A stretch of DNA of 32,138 nucleotides from an uncultured Candidatus Nitrosopumilus sp. (GTDB taxonomy: Archaea > Thermoproteota > Nitrososphaeria > Nitrososphaerales > Nitrosopumilaceae): positions 1-32,138 of the forward strand of contig CAJQRM010000053.1 of the NCBI GenBank assembly GCA_905612275.1, read 5' to 3'. The first letter of the stretch is position 1, and every line of letters begins with the position of its first letter. Positions 1,151 through 9,620 of the stretch are shown piece by piece. The notes under the pieces are model-generated. The model searched no databases. It saw nothing but the letters and a program-made list of their open reading frames with translations, and was not told the DNA's origin. A program made the position numbers and the translations under genes.

Positions 1151-1204
1151 CTAACATTTTTAATAATTTTTTATCTAAATAATATGTATTGTATGCAGAC
1201 GAAA

Positions 1205-3436
1205 TTAGATTTTTAATTCTAAAATATTTTCTAATTTTTCTCTAATTGTTTTTTCTCTAGCCTTGACAAATCCCCCAAAATCATCATTTAACATACACTC
1301 AAAAGCTTCAGATGAAATGAGGTGTGTTGCTAAACGTTCTTTCATTTTTTCTTTGGTAATTTTTTGATCATTCATGATTTCAGTTATGTATCTAGAGGGA
1401 TCTTTATTGCTAATGTAACGATTTGTTTTCTCAAAAATTAGAGTACGATTCAAAATTGAATCAATTAAATCACCAGTATTGAATTTTTTTGATTTTGATT
1501 TTGGGAAAATATGGTGATCTTCTAATCTACTAAAATCAGGAGGATCATCTCTGACAAAATCTAGCGCACCTTCTTTTGCAATTAAACACATAACTGCTTT
1601 GTAAATTGAACTACTACTTTTTGATTTAGGGAAGTTATCAGGAATAGTTTGTTGTTGTACAGTTTGTTCTCCACCCTCAAACCAAACATTCATCTCTTTA
1701 AGATCAGATTCCATTGCAGTATCTGTAGAACCAGAATATTCGTCATCAATTACATTATTCCAATACCAAAAACTAATTTTATCAAGACATTTGGTTCTAT
1801 CTGCTTTTTCTTCTGAAATTCTCAATAATGCTGCAAGAATTGGAACCATGGTTGTATATGGAATGAAGTCATAATTTGCAGCGCCAAATCCTTTAGAGGT
1901 AGTCAAAATTAGCCTTGTAATTGCATCCTCCACCCATTTTGACATTTCATGCCAGTCTTTTTCAAATTCATCCTTGTCAAATTTTCCTGAGATTGTATAT
2001 GATTCATCTAATCTCAATAGATAACGTCTTCTGGCATAACCTTGTTTGTATAGAGACATAGCTTGAAGAATGTATTGTGGTAATTTTTCATTTTTAAATT
2101 TTTCAAACCATGTGAGAATATTTTCCTGGTTTTCCAAAGTTTCACTCCAAAGATCTCTTAATATAATATCATGAATTCTAAATCGTGCATTTAATAAATC
2201 AAAGACGTCTAATCTAGTTCCCTTACTGTTGATTCTCTCAAAAACTTCAACTACGTTATCTAATGACAGGTTTTCAGGTAATTTTACAATCGGAATTTCA
2301 AAATGTGACCAGACATAATTGAATATTGATTCTAAAGTACTACGATATTTTTTAGCTGTCTCTTTTTCAAATTTTTCTGTTTCCATTAAATATTCATAAA
2401 AATCAAATACCCAATCGGTGTATCTTTTATCATTCAGTTCTGACAGTGGAAATAATTTTTTTCTAAATTGTGTCTTCTGTTCTAAAAGTCCAAGTCGTTC
2501 TACTTTCTTAATTCTATAACTACTGACAATATCTGTAGGTGGCCTACTTGGATCAAGTAATGCATTGATATCCAGAAAAAATAAGTAAGGATGATCAGTA
2601 TTGGGTAAACTAAGATCTGGTGCTTTTAATGGATAATATATTGCCGTGGTTCTTTGTTGTCCATCTAGAATCATATCAGGATGATCAGACAATTTGTCAG
2701 CACCTGAAACAGGATTTGAAGCAAGATCTTTTCCTCTTCCATCCCAAACTAGGATTGATCCGATATAGTACCCTCTGAAAATTGATTCCCATAACTCTTC
2801 TATTTGACCTCTACTCCAAGTCCATGCTCTTTGGAAATCAGGAATTGCAAATATGCCCTTATCCGCATCTCGGAAAATATCTCCGATTGATTTTTTGTCA
2901 GGTGTGGGAAGTTTTTCAATTTCAAATGAAGTATCTGGTAACTCTACTAATTCTTCTGGTTCATCAGTTTTTTCTTTTTCTTTGTTGAAATTTGGTTCTG
3001 TTTGTACTGCTTTTAGTTCTTCGAAAATTAAATCATAATCTTCTTGAGAGACTGGTTTAGCTGAGTTTGCAGGACCCATAGGCGTTCCTCTTAAATAAAG
3101 ACCAGTGTGTCCTTTCTTTTTTTCAATAAAATTCAAAGAAGATAATAATTTATGCACACTTGCATATCCTAATTGTATTATTTCTAAATCAATTTCTGCA
3201 CCAGTCTCTAAAACTTCTGAACCATGTTTTTGATCAGGCCATACTGTTATTCGATCATGCCAATCACTTTTTACTTCAAAAATTCCATGAAAATGCATAG
3301 TTCCGTTAACATAGAAGATAATTCTGTCTCCCTTTTGGACCCTTTTTCCTTTTCCTTTTTTACCGACTGCCCAAACTTTTTTCTCTTTTACAGTAGGCCA
3401 ACTTTCAGATTCTGTGGGCCAAATCCAATTACTCAA
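1205..3436 (-). CDS. EVE-DUF262-HNH protein, probable modification-dependent restriction enzyme (GmrSD-like)
   Basis: This 743-residue protein has three parts. Residues 2-145 resemble an EVE (PUA-like) domain: NWIWPT start, KGKGKRVQKGDRIIFYV, and the LGYASVHKLLSSL stretch. EVE domains bind modified bases in DNA or RNA. After an acidic linker, residues 183-420 match DUF262/GmrS: IPDFQR (198-203), LDGQQRTT (257-264) and VFERINSKGTRLDVFDLLNA (398-417). The DGQQR motif is the known nucleotide-handling core. Residues 638-680 carry the DUF1524/HNH nuclease signature EDHHIFPKS with a following N(S)ILNRT stretch. Members of this type cut DNA with modified bases using NTP. Modified-base specificity here is inferred from the EVE domain. 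An AT-rich TATA-like box lies at about 3458-3467. The gene stands alone on this strand, divergent from the Fe-S gene pair at 3751. Confidence 0.88.
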   Translation of the reverse strand: MSNWIWPTESESWPTVKEKKVWAVGKKGKGKRVQKGDRIIFYVNGTMHFHGIFEVKSDWHDRITVWPDQKHGSEVLETGAEIDLEIIQLGYASVHKLLSSLNFIEKKKGHTGLYLRGTPMGPANSAKPVSQEDYDLIFEELKAVQTEPNFNKEKEKTDEPEELVELPDTSFEIEKLPTPDKKSIGDIFRDADKGIFAIPDFQRAWTWSRGQIEELWESIFRGYYIGSILVWDGRGKDLASNPVSGADKLSDHPDMILDGQQRTTAIYYPLKAPDLSLPNTDHPYLFFLDINALLDPSRPPTDIVSSYRIKKVERLGLLEQKTQFRKKLFPLSELNDKRYTDWVFDFYEYLMETEKFEKETAKKYRSTLESIFNYVWSHFEIPIVKLPENLSLDNVVEVFERINSKGTRLDVFDLLNARFRIHDIILRDLWSETLENQENILTWFEKFKNEKLPQYILQAMSLYKQGYARRRYLLRLDESYTISGKFDKDEFEKDWHEMSKWVEDAITRLILTTSKGFGAANYDFIPYTTMVPILAALLRISEEKADRTKCLDKISFWYWNNVIDDEYSGSTDTAMESDLKEMNVWFEGGEQTVQQQTIPDNFPKSKSSSSIYKAVMCLIAKEGALDFVRDDPPDFSRLEDHHIFPKSKSKKFNTGDLIDSILNRTLIFEKTNRYISNKDPSRYITEIMNDQKITKEKMKERLATHLISSEAFECMLNDDFGGFVKAREKTIREKLENILELKI

Positions 3437-3750
3437 TAAAATATCAACATAGATAATACTAATAAAATGATCTTAGAATTTTAACATGCTTAAATTCATA
3501 AGAATGGAAGACAAACCATAGCATTAACAAATTAACACACAAATTTCCACGAGCAATAAAAGAGATAATGGTATAATCGAGTCTACACACAGAATTTTGA
3601 AAATTTCTGTAGAAAAAATGAATTATAAATCTATAATTTTAGAACTAAAGACTGACTTTTGAATAACCACAATGTTCAGTAGAAAAAATTAATATTTTTG
3701 TTATTATTTCTAAACATGTTAAACAAACTATCAGTATTATAACGAAATTT
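3437..3750. other. Divergent intergenic region between the EVE-DUF262-HNH gene and the Fe-S gene pair
   Basis: About 314 bases without a credible ORF. It should hold the two divergent promoters: TATA-like boxes near 3458-3467 (minus strand) and near 3719-3724 (plus strand). A small hairpin is possible at 3621-3638 (arms AATTATA and TATAATT, four-base loop). Two strings here recur downstream of the gene pair: the 21-base segment at 3540-3560 and TCTTAGAATTTTA at 3471-3483. Confidence 0.5.
3540..3560 (+). repeat. Short direct repeat, left copy flanking the Fe-S gene pair
   Basis: This 21-base segment begins CAAATTTCCACGAGCAAT. It recurs at 4911-4931 with 19 of 21 bases the same and in the same orientation. 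The two copies enclose the two-gene unit 3751-4825. Confidence 0.5.
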
Positions 3751-4452
3751 GTGTTAAAAATTATAAAAAAGATTGATTTTAAATTTAATTCAATTATGCC
3801 AATTTTTAAAAATGGTAATTATTCTGATTTTCTTAAAGGAAAATATCCTGAACCTGAAGACGTTTTAGTTTGTCCAACAGATGCACTAGATATAGATCAA
3901 AAGGAGATAAGTCTAGAAAAATGTGTTGAATGTTTATTGTGTCCATATTATTTACCTTCTAAAACTATAAAGTATTCTGAAGAAAATTCATTAGAAAAAT
4001 TTATGGAATTTGTAAATTCAGATAAAAAATATCTCACAAAATGGATTGGTCAAGCGATTTCTACATCAAACAGCGACATAAAATGTGGATTTGATGTGAA
4101 AATACAAAGTGGAAGTAGAACAAAACGGATTCCTTTATTGATAATAATTGAAAACAAACCATTAATTTTGAAAATTGTTGATTCATTCAAAGATATAGAG
4201 TATGGAGTTTTGAGTCTTGAAGAAATTGAAGAGGGGATTAAACAGTATGATTTACAACTACCTGGAAAAATTATTGTGACAAACGAAATAAAAATAAAAT
4301 ATGATGAGGAATTGCAAGAAATGGTTACTAAATTGAAAGAAAAACACAACTTTGAATTGGTATTTGCTGAAAGTATTTGGAATACTGTGAAAGAAGGTTG
4401 GCTTGCAACACAAGTAGAGTGGAAAAAGATATTTTGTCTTGAAACTAGATAA
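3751..4452 (+). CDS. Fe-S cluster protein with a possible PD-(D/E)xK nuclease core
   Basis: A 233-residue protein from a GTG start; an ATG at 3796 is an alternative. Residues 41-65 hold C41-P-T-D-A-L, then C58-x2-C61-x2-C64-P. This is the ligand set of one [4Fe-4S] cluster as in the second half-site of bacterial-type ferredoxins (C4-P plus C5-x2-C6-x2-C7). The C-terminal half has the spacing of a restriction-endonuclease fold: D115 in CGFDVKI, a beta strand IPLLIII, then E134-N-K136, followed by the helix and strand pattern LPGKIIVTN. Fe-S plus PD-(D/E)xK occurs in Cas4 and AddB, but there the cysteines bracket the nuclease; here they all precede it. Its stop lies four bases before the next gene, so the two are probably co-expressed. 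I do not recognise a named family. The nuclease assignment is inference; the cysteine motif is plain. Confidence 0.6.
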   Translation: MLKIIKKIDFKFNSIMPIFKNGNYSDFLKGKYPEPEDVLVCPTDALDIDQKEISLEKCVECLLCPYYLPSKTIKYSEENSLEKFMEFVNSDKKYLTKWIGQAISTSNSDIKCGFDVKIQSGSRTKRIPLLIIIENKPLILKIVDSFKDIEYGVLSLEEIEEGIKQYDLQLPGKIIVTNEIKIKYDEELQEMVTKLKEKHNFELVFAESIWNTVKEGWLATQVEWKKIFCLETR

Positions 4453-4456
4453 TAAT

Positions 4457-4825
4457 ATGGCAGTTTTAATTAATAGAAATCCTAATGGTCGATTAATTTG
4501 TCTTCATGCATTAACAAAAACTTTAGATAAGAAATTTGACGCTGTAGATTTTACAATAAATGATCTAAAATATGATGAGGAATTGTCAGTCAACATTACA
4601 GATTTTTGTGAACTTTTAACAAAAATTTCATCGGTTAAAGATCCAGTTTGTCCGTATTTAGATAATCCATTAAGTAAAGCCAAATGTTATTTGACACAAA
4701 GTAAACAATCCGATACTCAAAAAAATAAATCTGCAAGTGATGCAATGAATGCATTAGACGGATTAGGGTTTGTTACACTTTGTAATTTTTGGAAATTGAT
4801 TTTATGTTTTTTGATTTTAGGTTGA
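4457..4825 (+). CDS. Hypothetical protein, partner of the Fe-S protein
   Basis: The ATG at 4457 lies four bases after the upstream stop. An in-frame TTG at 4439 would overlap that gene and is less likely. The 122-residue product has a mixed N-terminal part (MAVLINRNPNGRLICLHAL), a DPVCPYL...KAKCYL segment with two Cys, and a phrase ASDAMNALDGLGFV that looks like the helix-turn of a small winged-helix domain. The last 17 residues (TLCNFWKLILCFLILG) are suddenly hydrophobic. Either this is a C-terminal membrane helix, or the original C-terminus has been lost and the frame runs through unrelated DNA. No known function. Its close coupling to the Fe-S gene suggests they act together. Confidence 0.55.
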   Translation: MAVLINRNPNGRLICLHALTKTLDKKFDAVDFTINDLKYDEELSVNITDFCELLTKISSVKDPVCPYLDNPLSKAKCYLTQSKQSDTQKNKSASDAMNALDGLGFVTLCNFWKLILCFLILG

Positions 4826-5081
4826 TAAGTCATCTTATGTACTAATGTGAGTTTTTAATCATTTTATTTGTCTCTATGTATTTTTGATTGACTTTTACCT
4901 TACTATAAAGCAAATTTCCACAAGCAATTAATTTAGACATAACTTCAGAGGATAAGAAATTGAATCTTCTAAATGAAATTACAATATCCATAAAATCTTA
5001 GAATTTTACGCCTAAAACCATATGAAAATATCATAAATAATAAACTAAATTTGGATTTCAATCATGAATAATAGTATGTAC
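4826..5081. other. Gene-poor AT-rich stretch after the Fe-S gene pair
   Basis: No ORF worth reporting. It holds the right copies of two short strings also found at 3471-3560: the 21-base repeat at 4911-4931 and TCTTAGAATTTTA at about 4996-5008. The shared operator motif begins at its right edge. It may be decayed sequence from an older insertion. Confidence 0.4.
4911..4931 (+). repeat. Short direct repeat, right copy flanking the Fe-S gene pair
   Basis: This matches 3540-3560 at 19 of 21 positions (CAAATTTCCACAAGCAAT here), in the same orientation. It lies 86 bases after the second gene of the unit. Confidence 0.5.
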
Positions 5082-5101
5082 AGTATGCATACTATTGACA
5101 T
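5082..5101 (+). promoter_or_regulatory. Shared operator, copy 1: AGTATGCATACT palindrome next to a TATA-like box
   Basis: A 12-base perfect palindrome (5082-5093) followed by ATTGACAT. The identical 20 bases recur at 6248-6267. The segment ends 34 bases before the ATG at 5136. Directly after it comes CATATTATTATC, which sits where a TATA box for a leaderless transcript should be. A dimeric regulator could bind here and act on recruitment of TBP/TFB. Confidence 0.7.
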
Positions 5102-5648: not shown

Positions 5649-6197
5649 TTATTTTAATTCTTTTTCCCATAACTTTCTTAACTCTGGCATTTCTTTATGT
5701 AACCACATATACCATTTTACAAATTCTGTAGTTTCATTTTTAATATAATCTATAATCTCATCATATTTTTTTACATCGTACCATGCAACAACTGGGTGGC
5801 CACTGTGAGTTTTTCCTGTTAGTTTATCTAATCCTGATCCTCTGAACTCTCCTTTGTTCATCATGATGGCAATAGCATGTAAATCAATACAAGGTCTCGT
5901 TAGAATTGAAATTGGAAACAACTTATATTTTTCAGATCTGGCCTGTAAAAATATATGCTCAAAATTTAAATTAAATCCGACTGGAATAAAATCCCACTCA
6001 TACTTGTTTGTAATGGTTGTTTTTTCTATGAATTGTCTAAGCATCTCCTCTTCTCCCAACTCCCATTCTTTGAGTATGGTTAATTCTCCTAGTTGCTTTC
6101 CTGTATCACGTTCAAGTTCTACGTATTGGATAGTTGTTATCTTATTTTCAAATTCATTCAAGCCTGTAGTTTCAATATCTAGGTAGTAATTTCCCAT
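5649..6197 (-). CDS. RNase H-like 3'-5' exonuclease-type protein (DnaQ/DEDD superfamily)
   Basis: A 182-residue protein that starts with the Exo I motif YLDIETTGL (D7, E9). The segment VGFNLNFEHIFL (73-84) fits Exo II, with E80 where Asp is usual. IIDYIKNETTEFVKWY (148-163) fits Exo III, with Y151 and E155 in place of the usual Tyr-x3-Asp. It resembles the single-domain ribonuclease H-like proteins found in archaea and phages rather than a polymerase proofreading subunit. Two-metal hydrolysis of nucleic acid 3' ends is the expected activity; the Glu substitutions make this less certain. It is divergent from the small-gene chain at 6301, and the shared operator lies between them, so it could be under the same control. 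Confidence 0.75.
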   Translation of the reverse strand: MGNYYLDIETTGLNEFENKITTIQYVELERDTGKQLGELTILKEWELGEEEMLRQFIEKTTITNKYEWDFIPVGFNLNFEHIFLQARSEKYKLFPISILTRPCIDLHAIAIMMNKGEFRGSGLDKLTGKTHSGHPVVAWYDVKKYDEIIDYIKNETTEFVKWYMWLHKEMPELRKLWEKELK

Positions 6198-6244
6198 ACA
6201 TAACGTGTGTTTTGAGATATTTTACTATGATCATTAATAGTATT

Positions 6245-6267
6245 AATAGTATGCATACTATTGACAT
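6245..6267 (+). promoter_or_regulatory. Shared operator, copy 2: extended 18-base palindrome
   Basis: AATAGTATGCATACTATT (6245-6262) is a perfect palindrome, and 6248-6267 equals 5082-5101 base for base. The segment ends 33 bases before the ATG at 6301, against 34 in copy 1. A TATA-like CCATAATAATAC follows at once. A direct repeat TAATAGTAT TAATAGTAT precedes the core. The site lies in the divergent region between the exonuclease-like gene (start 6197) and the small-gene chain. Confidence 0.72.
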
Positions 6268-6948: not shown

Positions 6949-7116
6949 GTGTCCAAAGTGTGGGGGAACTGACATTGCAATGATTTTGTGGGGGTTACCT
7001 CACATGTCAGAAGATTTAGAAAAAAAGTCAAAGAAAAGAAAATTGTTTTTGGTGGTTGCTGTGTTAGTGGAAATGATCCTCAACTAGAATGCAATGACTG
7101 TGGATGGAGATATTAA
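6941..7116 (+). CDS. Small zinc-ribbon protein split by a -1 frameshift at A AAA AAG
   Basis: The ATG frame starts MTECPKCGGTDIAMILWGLPHMSEDLEKK and then runs into a tag stop at 7085-7087 with a non-zinc tail. A shift of -1 at 7021-7027 gives instead VKEKKIVFGGCC, then VSGNDPQLECNDCGWRY and a stop at 7114-7116. The shifted product (58 residues) is a complete zinc ribbon (C4-x2-C7 and a C-terminal C-x2-C), close in form to a common family of small CPKCGSTDI...GGC...C.DCG proteins. The site A AAA AAG, in the right frame, is the heptamer used for programmed frameshifting in E. coli dnaX. A lost A in the seven-A run, real or from sequencing, would give the same picture. I see no strong hairpin after the site. 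Confidence 0.6.
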
Positions 7117-7118
7117 AA

Positions 7119-7406
7119 ATGACCATGCTTGATTCTAAAAAGAAAAGTGCATCTGAAGCATTAGTTAATTCCTTAGGAGGTTATCCTATAGGGTATGGAG
7201 TGGGAATTATTATTTTACCTCTATCTACGGGTTGGATTCAAGAGGATCCATACATGGCAAACATTGCAATTACAGGAGCATTTGCTGTTACTTCCTTTGT
7301 AAGATCATATTTTTTGAGAAGAATATTTGAGAAATATGGAATTGATGATAATTTTATTCGTCTAGGTAGAAAAAGTATTCAAAAATTAATTGAGAGATTA
7401 TCATGA
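7119..7406 (+). CDS. DUF7220-like small membrane protein (phage type)
   Basis: About 95 residues with two hydrophobic segments: LVNSLGGYPIGYGVGIIILPL and MANIAITGAFAVTSFVRS, then the basic SYFLRRIFEKYG. The pattern EA-x-N-x3-G-(Y/F)-x-I...ILPL...S-x-VRSY-x-LRR is what I know from DUF7220, a family common in tailed phages and prophages. I chose ATG 7119 because GGAG lies nine bases upstream; ATG 7104 and ATG 7125 are also in frame. The stop overlaps the next ATG (ATGA, 7403-7406). The phage link is one of the reasons to suspect a mobile origin for this chain. Confidence 0.65.
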   Translation: MTMLDSKKKSASEALVNSLGGYPIGYGVGIIILPLSTGWIQEDPYMANIAITGAFAVTSFVRSYFLRRIFEKYGIDDNFIRLGRKSIQKLIERLS

Positions 7407-8604: not shown

Positions 8605-8743
8605 GATTGTAATGAAATACCCCCCTTCTAATTAATCTAAAACTATTGAAAAATTAATTTGTTTAACTAATTCTCTTACTACATCTGATTTACAGAATAA
8701 CCCATTCCTCATTAACTAAAATTCAGTATTACTCTTGTAGCCT

Positions 8744-8875
8744 ATGTTTATTCCATGCACTCTTTGCAAGAAAATCATGCCTTTTGATGAACGAAGAATC
8801 AGGAATCAACATTCCTATCATAGGTCATGTGTGTGGCACGTTGCTCACTTGATACGATTGGAGAATTTCTTTTGA
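8744..8875 (+). CDS. Mini zinc-finger protein A (43 residues)
   Basis: MFIPCTLCKKIMPFDERRIR... carries C5-x2-C8 and H23-x2-H26-x2-C29. It is a clear paralogue of the next gene: both share CTLCKK, a D-x-R-(R)-I-R-N segment, H-x-YH and C-V. The stop overlaps the TTG of the second gene in TTGA. Two linked paralogues with conserved metal ligands support both as real genes. The fold is probably a small treble-clef-like finger. Function unknown. Confidence 0.6.
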   Translation: MFIPCTLCKKIMPFDERRIRNQHSYHRSCVWHVAHLIRLENFF

Positions 8876-8982
8876 TTATTCATTGTACTCTTTGTAAAAA
8901 GGAAATTCGACTAGATCCAAGAATCAGAAATGCGCACTGGTATCATAAGAAATGTGTTATGAAAGTGGATTTAATTATCTAG
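8872..8982 (+). CDS. Mini zinc-finger protein B (36 residues)
   Basis: A TTG start overlapping the stop of the previous gene. The product MIIHCTLCKKEIRLDPRIRN... has C5-x2-C8 and H22-x2-H25-x2-C28. It repeats the ligand pattern of its neighbour with one residue less in the loop. It is likely a tandem duplicate and co-translated. Confidence 0.58.
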   Translation: MIIHCTLCKKEIRLDPRIRNAHWYHKKCVMKVDLII

Positions 8983-9123
8983 ATTTTAACAAACTAAAGT
9001 GTATTGTAGATATTTTGATGTAACAATATTTCTTCTTTGTTTTTGCCATAATCCATACGCTTAAGTCCATACAATTTGTCAATTATCTACTTGGCTAGTT
9101 TTAAGAAAATCACCGTTGATCAA

Positions 9124-9561
9124 ATGAATCAAACACAAAAAAAGATTCGTGATAATATTTTAAGCATGTTGGATTTCCTTGACAGATGTGTAGGACAACC
9201 TGATAAACCAAATCAAGAAATGTCAGAAATTCACCTAAATGAAATGTATTCAATATTTGCTAATGCCATAGAAGAATATGGAAAATTAGTCTACATGAAA
9301 TCAATAATTCAGGATTCAGATAACAATTATGAAATTAATTATCGACACAAATTTCGTGATCATACAACAAAATATCATCTTGCACTAACAGAATTACCTA
9401 AATCCATTGGAGATGTATTTGAAGATGGATTTACTAAAATGCCAATGAATATTCTAAACGTAGATTTAGATGATAAAGGCGACCCCAAATGGATTGAATT
9501 TGATATAGATATCGATACATTAAGAAAATGTGTATTTGATTTTAGAAATCAGCTAGTTTAG
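9124..9561 (+). CDS. Hypothetical protein upstream of aspS
   Basis: A 145-residue soluble protein starting MNQTQKKIRDNILSMLDFL; an in-frame TTG at 9076 would add 16 residues. It is mainly helical in the first half and has an acidic C-terminal part (DVDLDDKGDPKWIEFDIDID). No motif I know. It ends 59 bases before aspS, which has its own promoter-like box, so the two are probably separate units. Confidence 0.6.
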   Translation: MNQTQKKIRDNILSMLDFLDRCVGQPDKPNQEMSEIHLNEMYSIFANAIEEYGKLVYMKSIIQDSDNNYEINYRHKFRDHTTKYHLALTELPKSIGDVFEDGFTKMPMNILNVDLDDKGDPKWIEFDIDIDTLRKCVFDFRNQLV

Positions 9562-9620
9562 TAAAGAAAAATCACCTACAAAAATTAATTATACGAGAAA
9601 ATATGCAATAATTGTAAATT

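Follow-up and report, generated by a model that had tools for sequence, protein, structure and literature searches.

A ferredoxin-fusion gene and its partner, without detected homologues and separable from the neighbouring type IV restriction gene, in a Nitrosopumilus-like archaeon

Several described systems bear on the locus presented here. In Cas4 and AddB, four cysteines flank the nuclease core and staple the nuclease fold. The 7Fe/8Fe bacterial-type ferredoxins, such as FdxA and Azotobacter FdI, are another point of comparison. Degenerate REase folds are known in BREX and BREX-related helicases, and a nucleotide-sensing role has been proposed for them (PMC12839542). Fusions of EVE to GmrSD are rare and have been described (PMC7641849), and a DUF262-DUF1524 layout is also on record (PMC4619093). 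We analysed a 32,138-nucleotide stretch of DNA from an uncultured Candidatus Nitrosopumilus sp. (contig CAJQRM010000053.1; hereafter the window), in which two adjacent genes, A and B, stand next to a divergent restriction gene. On balance, A and B are best described as an orphan pair of genes, the first a ferredoxin fusion that may include a dead endonuclease fold, and as cargo that can be separated from the type IV restriction gene next to it. The genes and domains concerned are these:

1205..3436, minus strand: EVE + GmrSD_N (DUF262) gene with a C-terminal EDHHIFPKS HNH-like motif (Pfam, PADLOC)
3751..4452, plus strand: gene A, GTG start, 233 aa; N-terminal Fe-S domain with one cluster, C-terminal alpha/beta domain, family unassigned
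3835..4014, plus strand: ferredoxin-like domain of A, residues ~29-88 (phmmer to 2fd2; Fer4, VhuB and FdxA matches)
4066..4404, plus strand: alpha/beta domain of A, residues ~106-218, possible HsdR-N/REase-like fold (custom HSDR_N_2 profile)
4457..4825, plus strand: gene B, ATG start, 122 aa, four bases past the stop of A

A and B are probably real coding sequences, because their in-frame codon score (+0.19 per codon, with 15 core genes from the same window as the training set) equals that of the neighbouring genes and the other two forward frames are strongly negative (-0.5 to -0.7). An alternative in-frame ATG at 3796 would give an A of 218 aa, and a TTG frame at 4439 for B would overlap A. 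A first-pass annotation of this DNA had given coordinates and residues for both genes that were correct on re-check, including the four-base distance between the stop of A at 4452 and the ATG of B at 4457. An exact 20-bp repeat, which exceeds chance expectation within 1.7 kb, is common to A (4295-4314) and B (4566-4585), and KYDEEL is encoded in both.

Sequence comparison gives good support to the N-terminal part of A being of ferredoxin type, with a single cluster left. The complete set of cysteines in A is C41 (followed by proline), C58, C61, C64, C112 and C229. By phmmer, the 7Fe ferredoxin 2fd2 (Azotobacter FdI) aligns to residues 29-98 of A with an E value of 0.059, and C41, C58, C61 and C64 fall on C20, C39, C42 and C45, which are the four [4Fe-4S] cluster ligands of 2fd2; the ligands for the 3Fe-4S cluster are missing from A in this alignment. 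The ligand pattern of CxxCxxC with a distal Cys-Pro is present. A fragment of A matches Fer4 with an E value of 0.0019 and 18.3 bits against a curated cut-off of 21.1, and among NCBIfam families A matches VhuB (7e-4) and FdxA (1.2e-3, 19.1 bits against a cut-off of 135). A therefore scores below the curated cut-offs of Fer4 and FdxA, and all of its ferredoxin profile matches are sub-threshold, yet they are concordant and ferredoxins dominate the weak hits. The Cys pattern of A is beyond chance, the arrangement C-x(10,25)-CxxCxxC arising in 79 of 200,000 shuffles of the protein. The alignment to the 2fd2 ligands bears out the first-pass claim of one full [4Fe-4S] ligand set, and all four ligands do lie N-terminal to the second domain of A, with C112 and C229 isolated. 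The accompanying comparison with Cas4 and AddB is misleading, because the cysteines of A belong to a distinct ferredoxin-type domain fused to the rest of the protein and do not staple a nuclease fold. A does not have Fe-S cysteines on both sides of a nuclease core; the idea that it is a Cas4 relative was dropped.

For the C-terminal domain of A, a PD-(D/E)xK nuclease core built on D115, E134 and K136 had been proposed. All three residues are found in the translation of A. When the C-terminal domain is shuffled, 87% of the shuffles contain at least one instance of D followed by (D/E)xK 9-31 residues on, and A has four, so that the D115...E134-x-K136 pattern is probably due to chance. No nuclease family was matched by A in Pfam, NCBIfam, PHROGs, PADLOC or PDB; with the C-terminal domain, the Pfam search was empty even at E<=10 and the PDB sequence search returned nothing. 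Two custom profiles were tried, built from archaeal HSDR_N_2 (PF13588) and Mrr_cat proteins. The HSDR_N_2 profile gives the domain 7.8 bits, which tops 960 scored shuffles (maximum 7.2) and 274 other real segments (maximum 5.4; 275 segments in all) and is far below any standard threshold, lacking absolute significance. The Mrr_cat profile gave no signal on the domain (rank 32 of 288).

The HSDR_N_2 alignment places the family segment evpirvgtkekkvDiilyqegkPvifvevKkf over DVKIQSGSRTKRIPLLIIIENKPLILKIVDSF of A, so that residues 115-146 lie opposite the strand-turn-strand which surrounds D and ExK in the family. The catalytic D, E and K positions are held by P127, I142 and D144, which thus stand where a PD-(D/E)xK protein has D...(D/E)xK on its core strands, and E134-N135-K136 sits in a beta-turn between strands. 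The HsdR-N-like match is suggestive only; should A have this fold, it would be catalytically dead, since the D, E and K positions are substituted. With hhalign, the domain gave only degenerate one-column alignments to the HSDR_N_2 and Mrr alignments. AlphaFold without homologues, run on full-length A and on residues 79-233, returned pLDDT values of 38-39, too poor for use; the low-confidence models of the domain (pLDDT <40) show a helix, three strands and a helix, where the core of PD-(D/E)xK nucleases is alpha-beta-beta-beta-alpha-beta. Foldseek with the model of residues 79-233 found nothing significant, the model being too poor for a meaningful comparison, and fold comparison is uninformative because homologue-free structure prediction is unusable for this protein. 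With a motif expected by chance, no nuclease family matched and the catalytic positions substituted in the one suggestive alignment, the proposed core is not supported: an active nuclease core in A is unlikely, and the D115/E134/K136 motif should not serve as a basis for annotating the protein.

B contains the DGLGF phrase, and SDAMNALDGLGFV...NFWKL reads by eye like a recognition helix and wing; a winged-helix segment at the C-terminal end of the protein is possible. The C terminus itself, TLCNFWKLILCFLILG, lies over a 13-15-bp tandem duplication (4796-4823), which fits the damaged-looking end noted earlier. Neither the profile searches (Pfam included) nor a PDB sequence search gave a match for B. 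The idea that B is a frameshifted longer gene was dropped, there being no continuing frame after 4780.

The divergent gene, which the first-pass annotation called restriction-like, matches GmrSD_N (PF03235) at 3e-34 and EVE at 2e-8 in Pfam, and PDC-M55C/HEC-05 in PADLOC. Both DGQQR and EDHHIFPKS are visible in its translation, so that the gene has the DUF262/GmrSD_N domain, the DGQQR motif and the C-terminal HNH of GmrSD type IV proteins. Its domains and motifs identify the product as a type IV (modification-dependent) restriction protein. The viral search returned no relatives of this EVE-GmrSD gene.

The relation of A and B to the restriction gene is best seen by comparison with one other genome, that of the closest relative, G029, in which the EVE-GmrSD gene is 92% identical and aspS is 97% identical to those of the window. 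The segments and repeats involved are these:

~1180-1198: half operator-like copy at the left edge of the cassette
1199..5062, no strand: whole cassette, EVE-GmrSD + A + B, between half and full operator-like copies; G029 has this site empty and intact
3486..5066, plus strand: A/B segment missing in G029 (blastn of the window on L080 of G029, junction sequences)
5056..5101, plus strand: full copy of the palindrome repeat, TAGTATGTACAGTATGCATACTATTGACAT, upstream of ORF 5136; its part 5067-5101 bounds the cassette on the right
6222-6267 in the window, 4870-4904 and 8087-8118 in L080, and L093-L118: further operator-like copies
Operator-like site, written as AGTATG-n3-AGTATGCATACT: putative site of the CARF-wHTH regulator encoded at L080 9835-10602
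9076-9561, adjoining aspS: AbiV-like ORF, 161 aa; weak AbiV/HEPN matches (NCBIfam 1e-3, below the cut-off; Pfam 0.007)

The G029 assembly is 63% complete, and the A/B junction is internal to one of its contigs. There the equivalent of window position 3485 abuts the equivalent of 5067, a clean 1.6-kb indel with A and B gone and the restriction gene kept. Close to the two ends of the A/B segment, the window has an exact 14-bp direct repeat, ATCTTAGAATTTTA (3470-3483 and 4995-5008). Comparison of the two genomes leaves the indel as either a gain in the window or a loss in G029. Because the EVE-GmrSD gene is kept without A and B in G029, the pair is a separable module, and A, B and the restriction gene do not form one obligate system. 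Conserved co-occurrence of the three was not found, the sole close relative with the restriction gene having it without A/B, and the three-gene defence unit suggested in the first-pass annotation is not supported.

The restriction cassette as a whole also differs in position between the two genomes. In the window it lies between ORFs 317 and 5136, in G029 between the equivalents of 5649 and 6396/6575 (L080 4905-7209, the counterpart of window 1199-5062), and each genome has the other's cassette site, empty and intact. At both sites TAGTATGnAnAGTATGCATACTATTGACAT bounds the cassette, as a half copy on one side and in full on the other. Recombination between operator copies probably shuffles cassettes. 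No transposase is apparent at the EVE-GmrSD cassette.

The palindrome, which is conserved, probably serves a CARF-type regulator as its operator, because it is found mostly in the divergent promoter of that regulator near a TATA-like element. The 20-base core of TAGTATGnAnAGTATGCATACTATTGACAT (<=2 mismatches) occurs in 17 of 95 genus genomes, and the reversed control never does; the operator-like AGTATGnAnAGTATGCATACTATTGACAT followed by a TATA-like element is likewise present in 17 of the 95. In most of those genomes the core falls in a divergent promoter, usually at the start of the gene for a CARF + winged-helix regulator (HFX_2341_N/DUF6293), where it is adjoined by the TATA-like element; the operator-like sequence also precedes other genes of the island. 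In IMG/VR the motif, taken as an exact 30-base pattern, is absent. The arrangement resembles a non-CRISPR CARF regulon with autoregulation. Perhaps the more general point of this locus is that cassettes appear to be exchanged at palindrome repeats marking CARF-type regulator promoters across the genus.

A and B lie in a variable island with many defence genes: with the restriction gene go the AbiV-like ORF and, as island cargo in relatives, McrC, CARF proteins and a Cas4-like PD-(D/E)xK protein that has AAA and VWA proteins beside it. The spacer holding the AbiV-like ORF (8646-9580) is ~930 bp in the window and only ~260 bp in G029. Because the island carries defence-like genes, a defence cargo role for A and B is plausible, by association only. 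Other island genes were also seen. The same island in G014 has an operon-like set of Cas4-like PD-(D/E)xK protein, AAA ATPase and VWA protein genes at L082 3456-7046 and an McrC gene at L082 10329-11597. In the window, 7104-7406 encodes a DUF7220 protein (Pfam 1.3e-17, phrog_4276 3.6e-14) of a phage-associated family, which is kept in the island of G029, G014, G023 and others, and 5649-6197 is an RNase_H_2/DEDD-type exonuclease-like ORF (Pfam 2.6e-7) kept in the islands of several relatives.

A and B are without detectable homologues in the genomes and collections searched. We found no full-length relative of A in 250 family genomes, the genus included, or in 398 sampled phylum genomes, nor was A found in GTDB contigs, IMG/VR, plasmids or phages; for B, no homologue was found in 400 order genomes, 300 phylum genomes, IMG/VR or plasmids. 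The matches returned were ferredoxin motifs or chance hits only. Because the GTDB and IMG/VR scans are based on short exact peptide patterns, they detect close relatives only. Wider scans of both with pattern alignments (A1 and A2), which include artificially edited ferredoxin fragments purely as a pattern device, returned nothing.

The best explanation as a whole, to which we assign a probability of about 0.4, is that A and B are strain-specific cargo on an exchangeable island of a Nitrosopumilus-like archaeon, beside and yet separable from the EVE-GmrSD gene. Protein A would combine a one-cluster ferredoxin-type domain with what is most likely a degenerate, catalytically dead REase-like fold of the HsdR-N kind, and protein B would be a small partner, probably co-transcribed, with a possible winged-helix end. 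The Fe-S domain may be a structural or redox-sensing module, and the dead nuclease fold and B would bind DNA or nucleotide ligands; on this view A/B would act on or with the local defence genes as a regulator, sensor or accessory, and not as an enzyme that cuts. The Fe-S motif, the coding character of both genes, their order, the clean indel against G029 and the island setting are observed; the dead REase fold, DNA binding and any part in defence are inferred. It is a tenable but tentative alternative that the pair is ORFan cargo outside defence, a ferredoxin-fusion redox or regulatory protein and its partner with no functional tie to restriction. Ferredoxin is indeed the sole identifiable domain of A and B, the pair is absent from all relatives and it is separable from the restriction gene; this reading is made less likely by the fact that the pair shares its exchanged cassette with the EVE-GmrSD gene, in a defence-rich island.

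Decay is a further consideration. The small tandem duplication that encodes the last residues of B, the loss from G029 of the A/B segment, whose ends in the window lie close to the 14-bp direct repeat, and the 20-bp exact repeat common to A and B would all suit a decaying remnant of a larger locus, in which B has lost its C terminus and the pair is being lost, as in G029. We consider this unlikely, since the frames of A and B are open with good codon statistics up to the end region of B, all four cysteine ligands of A are intact and the sequence contains no out-of-frame continuation of B. Very unlikely is the reading in which A is an active Fe-S PD-(D/E)xK nuclease (D115, E134, K136) and, together with B and the divergent gene, makes up a new defence system of archaea. 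The three residues are at permitted spacing, LLIIIENK is superficially like an llviEvK strand and the neighbour is a restriction gene, but such motifs turn up in 87% of shuffles, the best fold alignment puts E134-N-K136 in a turn between strands, no nuclease family matches and the restriction gene occurs without A/B. Supported in the first-pass annotation are the Fe-S ligand set and the restriction-like neighbour, in surroundings that are a defence-rich island; the nuclease core and the three-gene unit are not supported. Returning to the island-cargo explanation with a dead HsdR-N-like fold, its boldest form makes A and B a new two-gene module, in which a fusion of one-cluster ferredoxin and dead REase fold is paired with a winged-helix protein. 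In marine ammonia-oxidising archaea such a module would sense redox state or ligands as an accessory of type IV restriction; this we regard as distinctly doubtful. What the evidence shows at present is that a defence-rich island can carry an Fe-S gene pair as cargo specific to one strain.

Compared with known systems, the 1205-3436 gene is like the EVE-GmrSD type IV proteins in its EVE, DUF262 and HNH-like C terminus, and A and B are both outside that family. With HSDR_N_2 (PF13588), A may have in common a strand-turn-strand segment with a conserved G and P, whereas its catalytic D, E and K are all substituted and the match is too weak for membership. The inactive REase domains of BREX and BREX-related helicases offer a possible likeness, but A/B lacks a helicase or NTPase, and the passages on inactive REase domains in that paper do not mention an Fe-S domain fused to REase (PMC12839542). 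In the open-licence literature we found no description of a ferredoxin-REase fusion with the architecture of A. The four [4Fe-4S] ligands of the 7Fe/8Fe bacterial-type ferredoxins (FdxA; Azotobacter FdI) stand in the same order and at similar spacing as those of A, which differs in having a single cluster, in the loss of the 3Fe-4S ligands and in the ~145-residue C-terminal domain fused on. What A has in common with Cas4 and AddB is an Fe-S ligand set in a protein with a possible nuclease-like fold; in A that set belongs to a separate ferredoxin-type domain placed in front. If A does couple a ferredoxin-type cluster with a dead nuclease fold, it would link Fe-S chemistry to restriction-like proteins in a way unlike the Cas4/AddB staple and would point to redox sensing in the defence of archaea.
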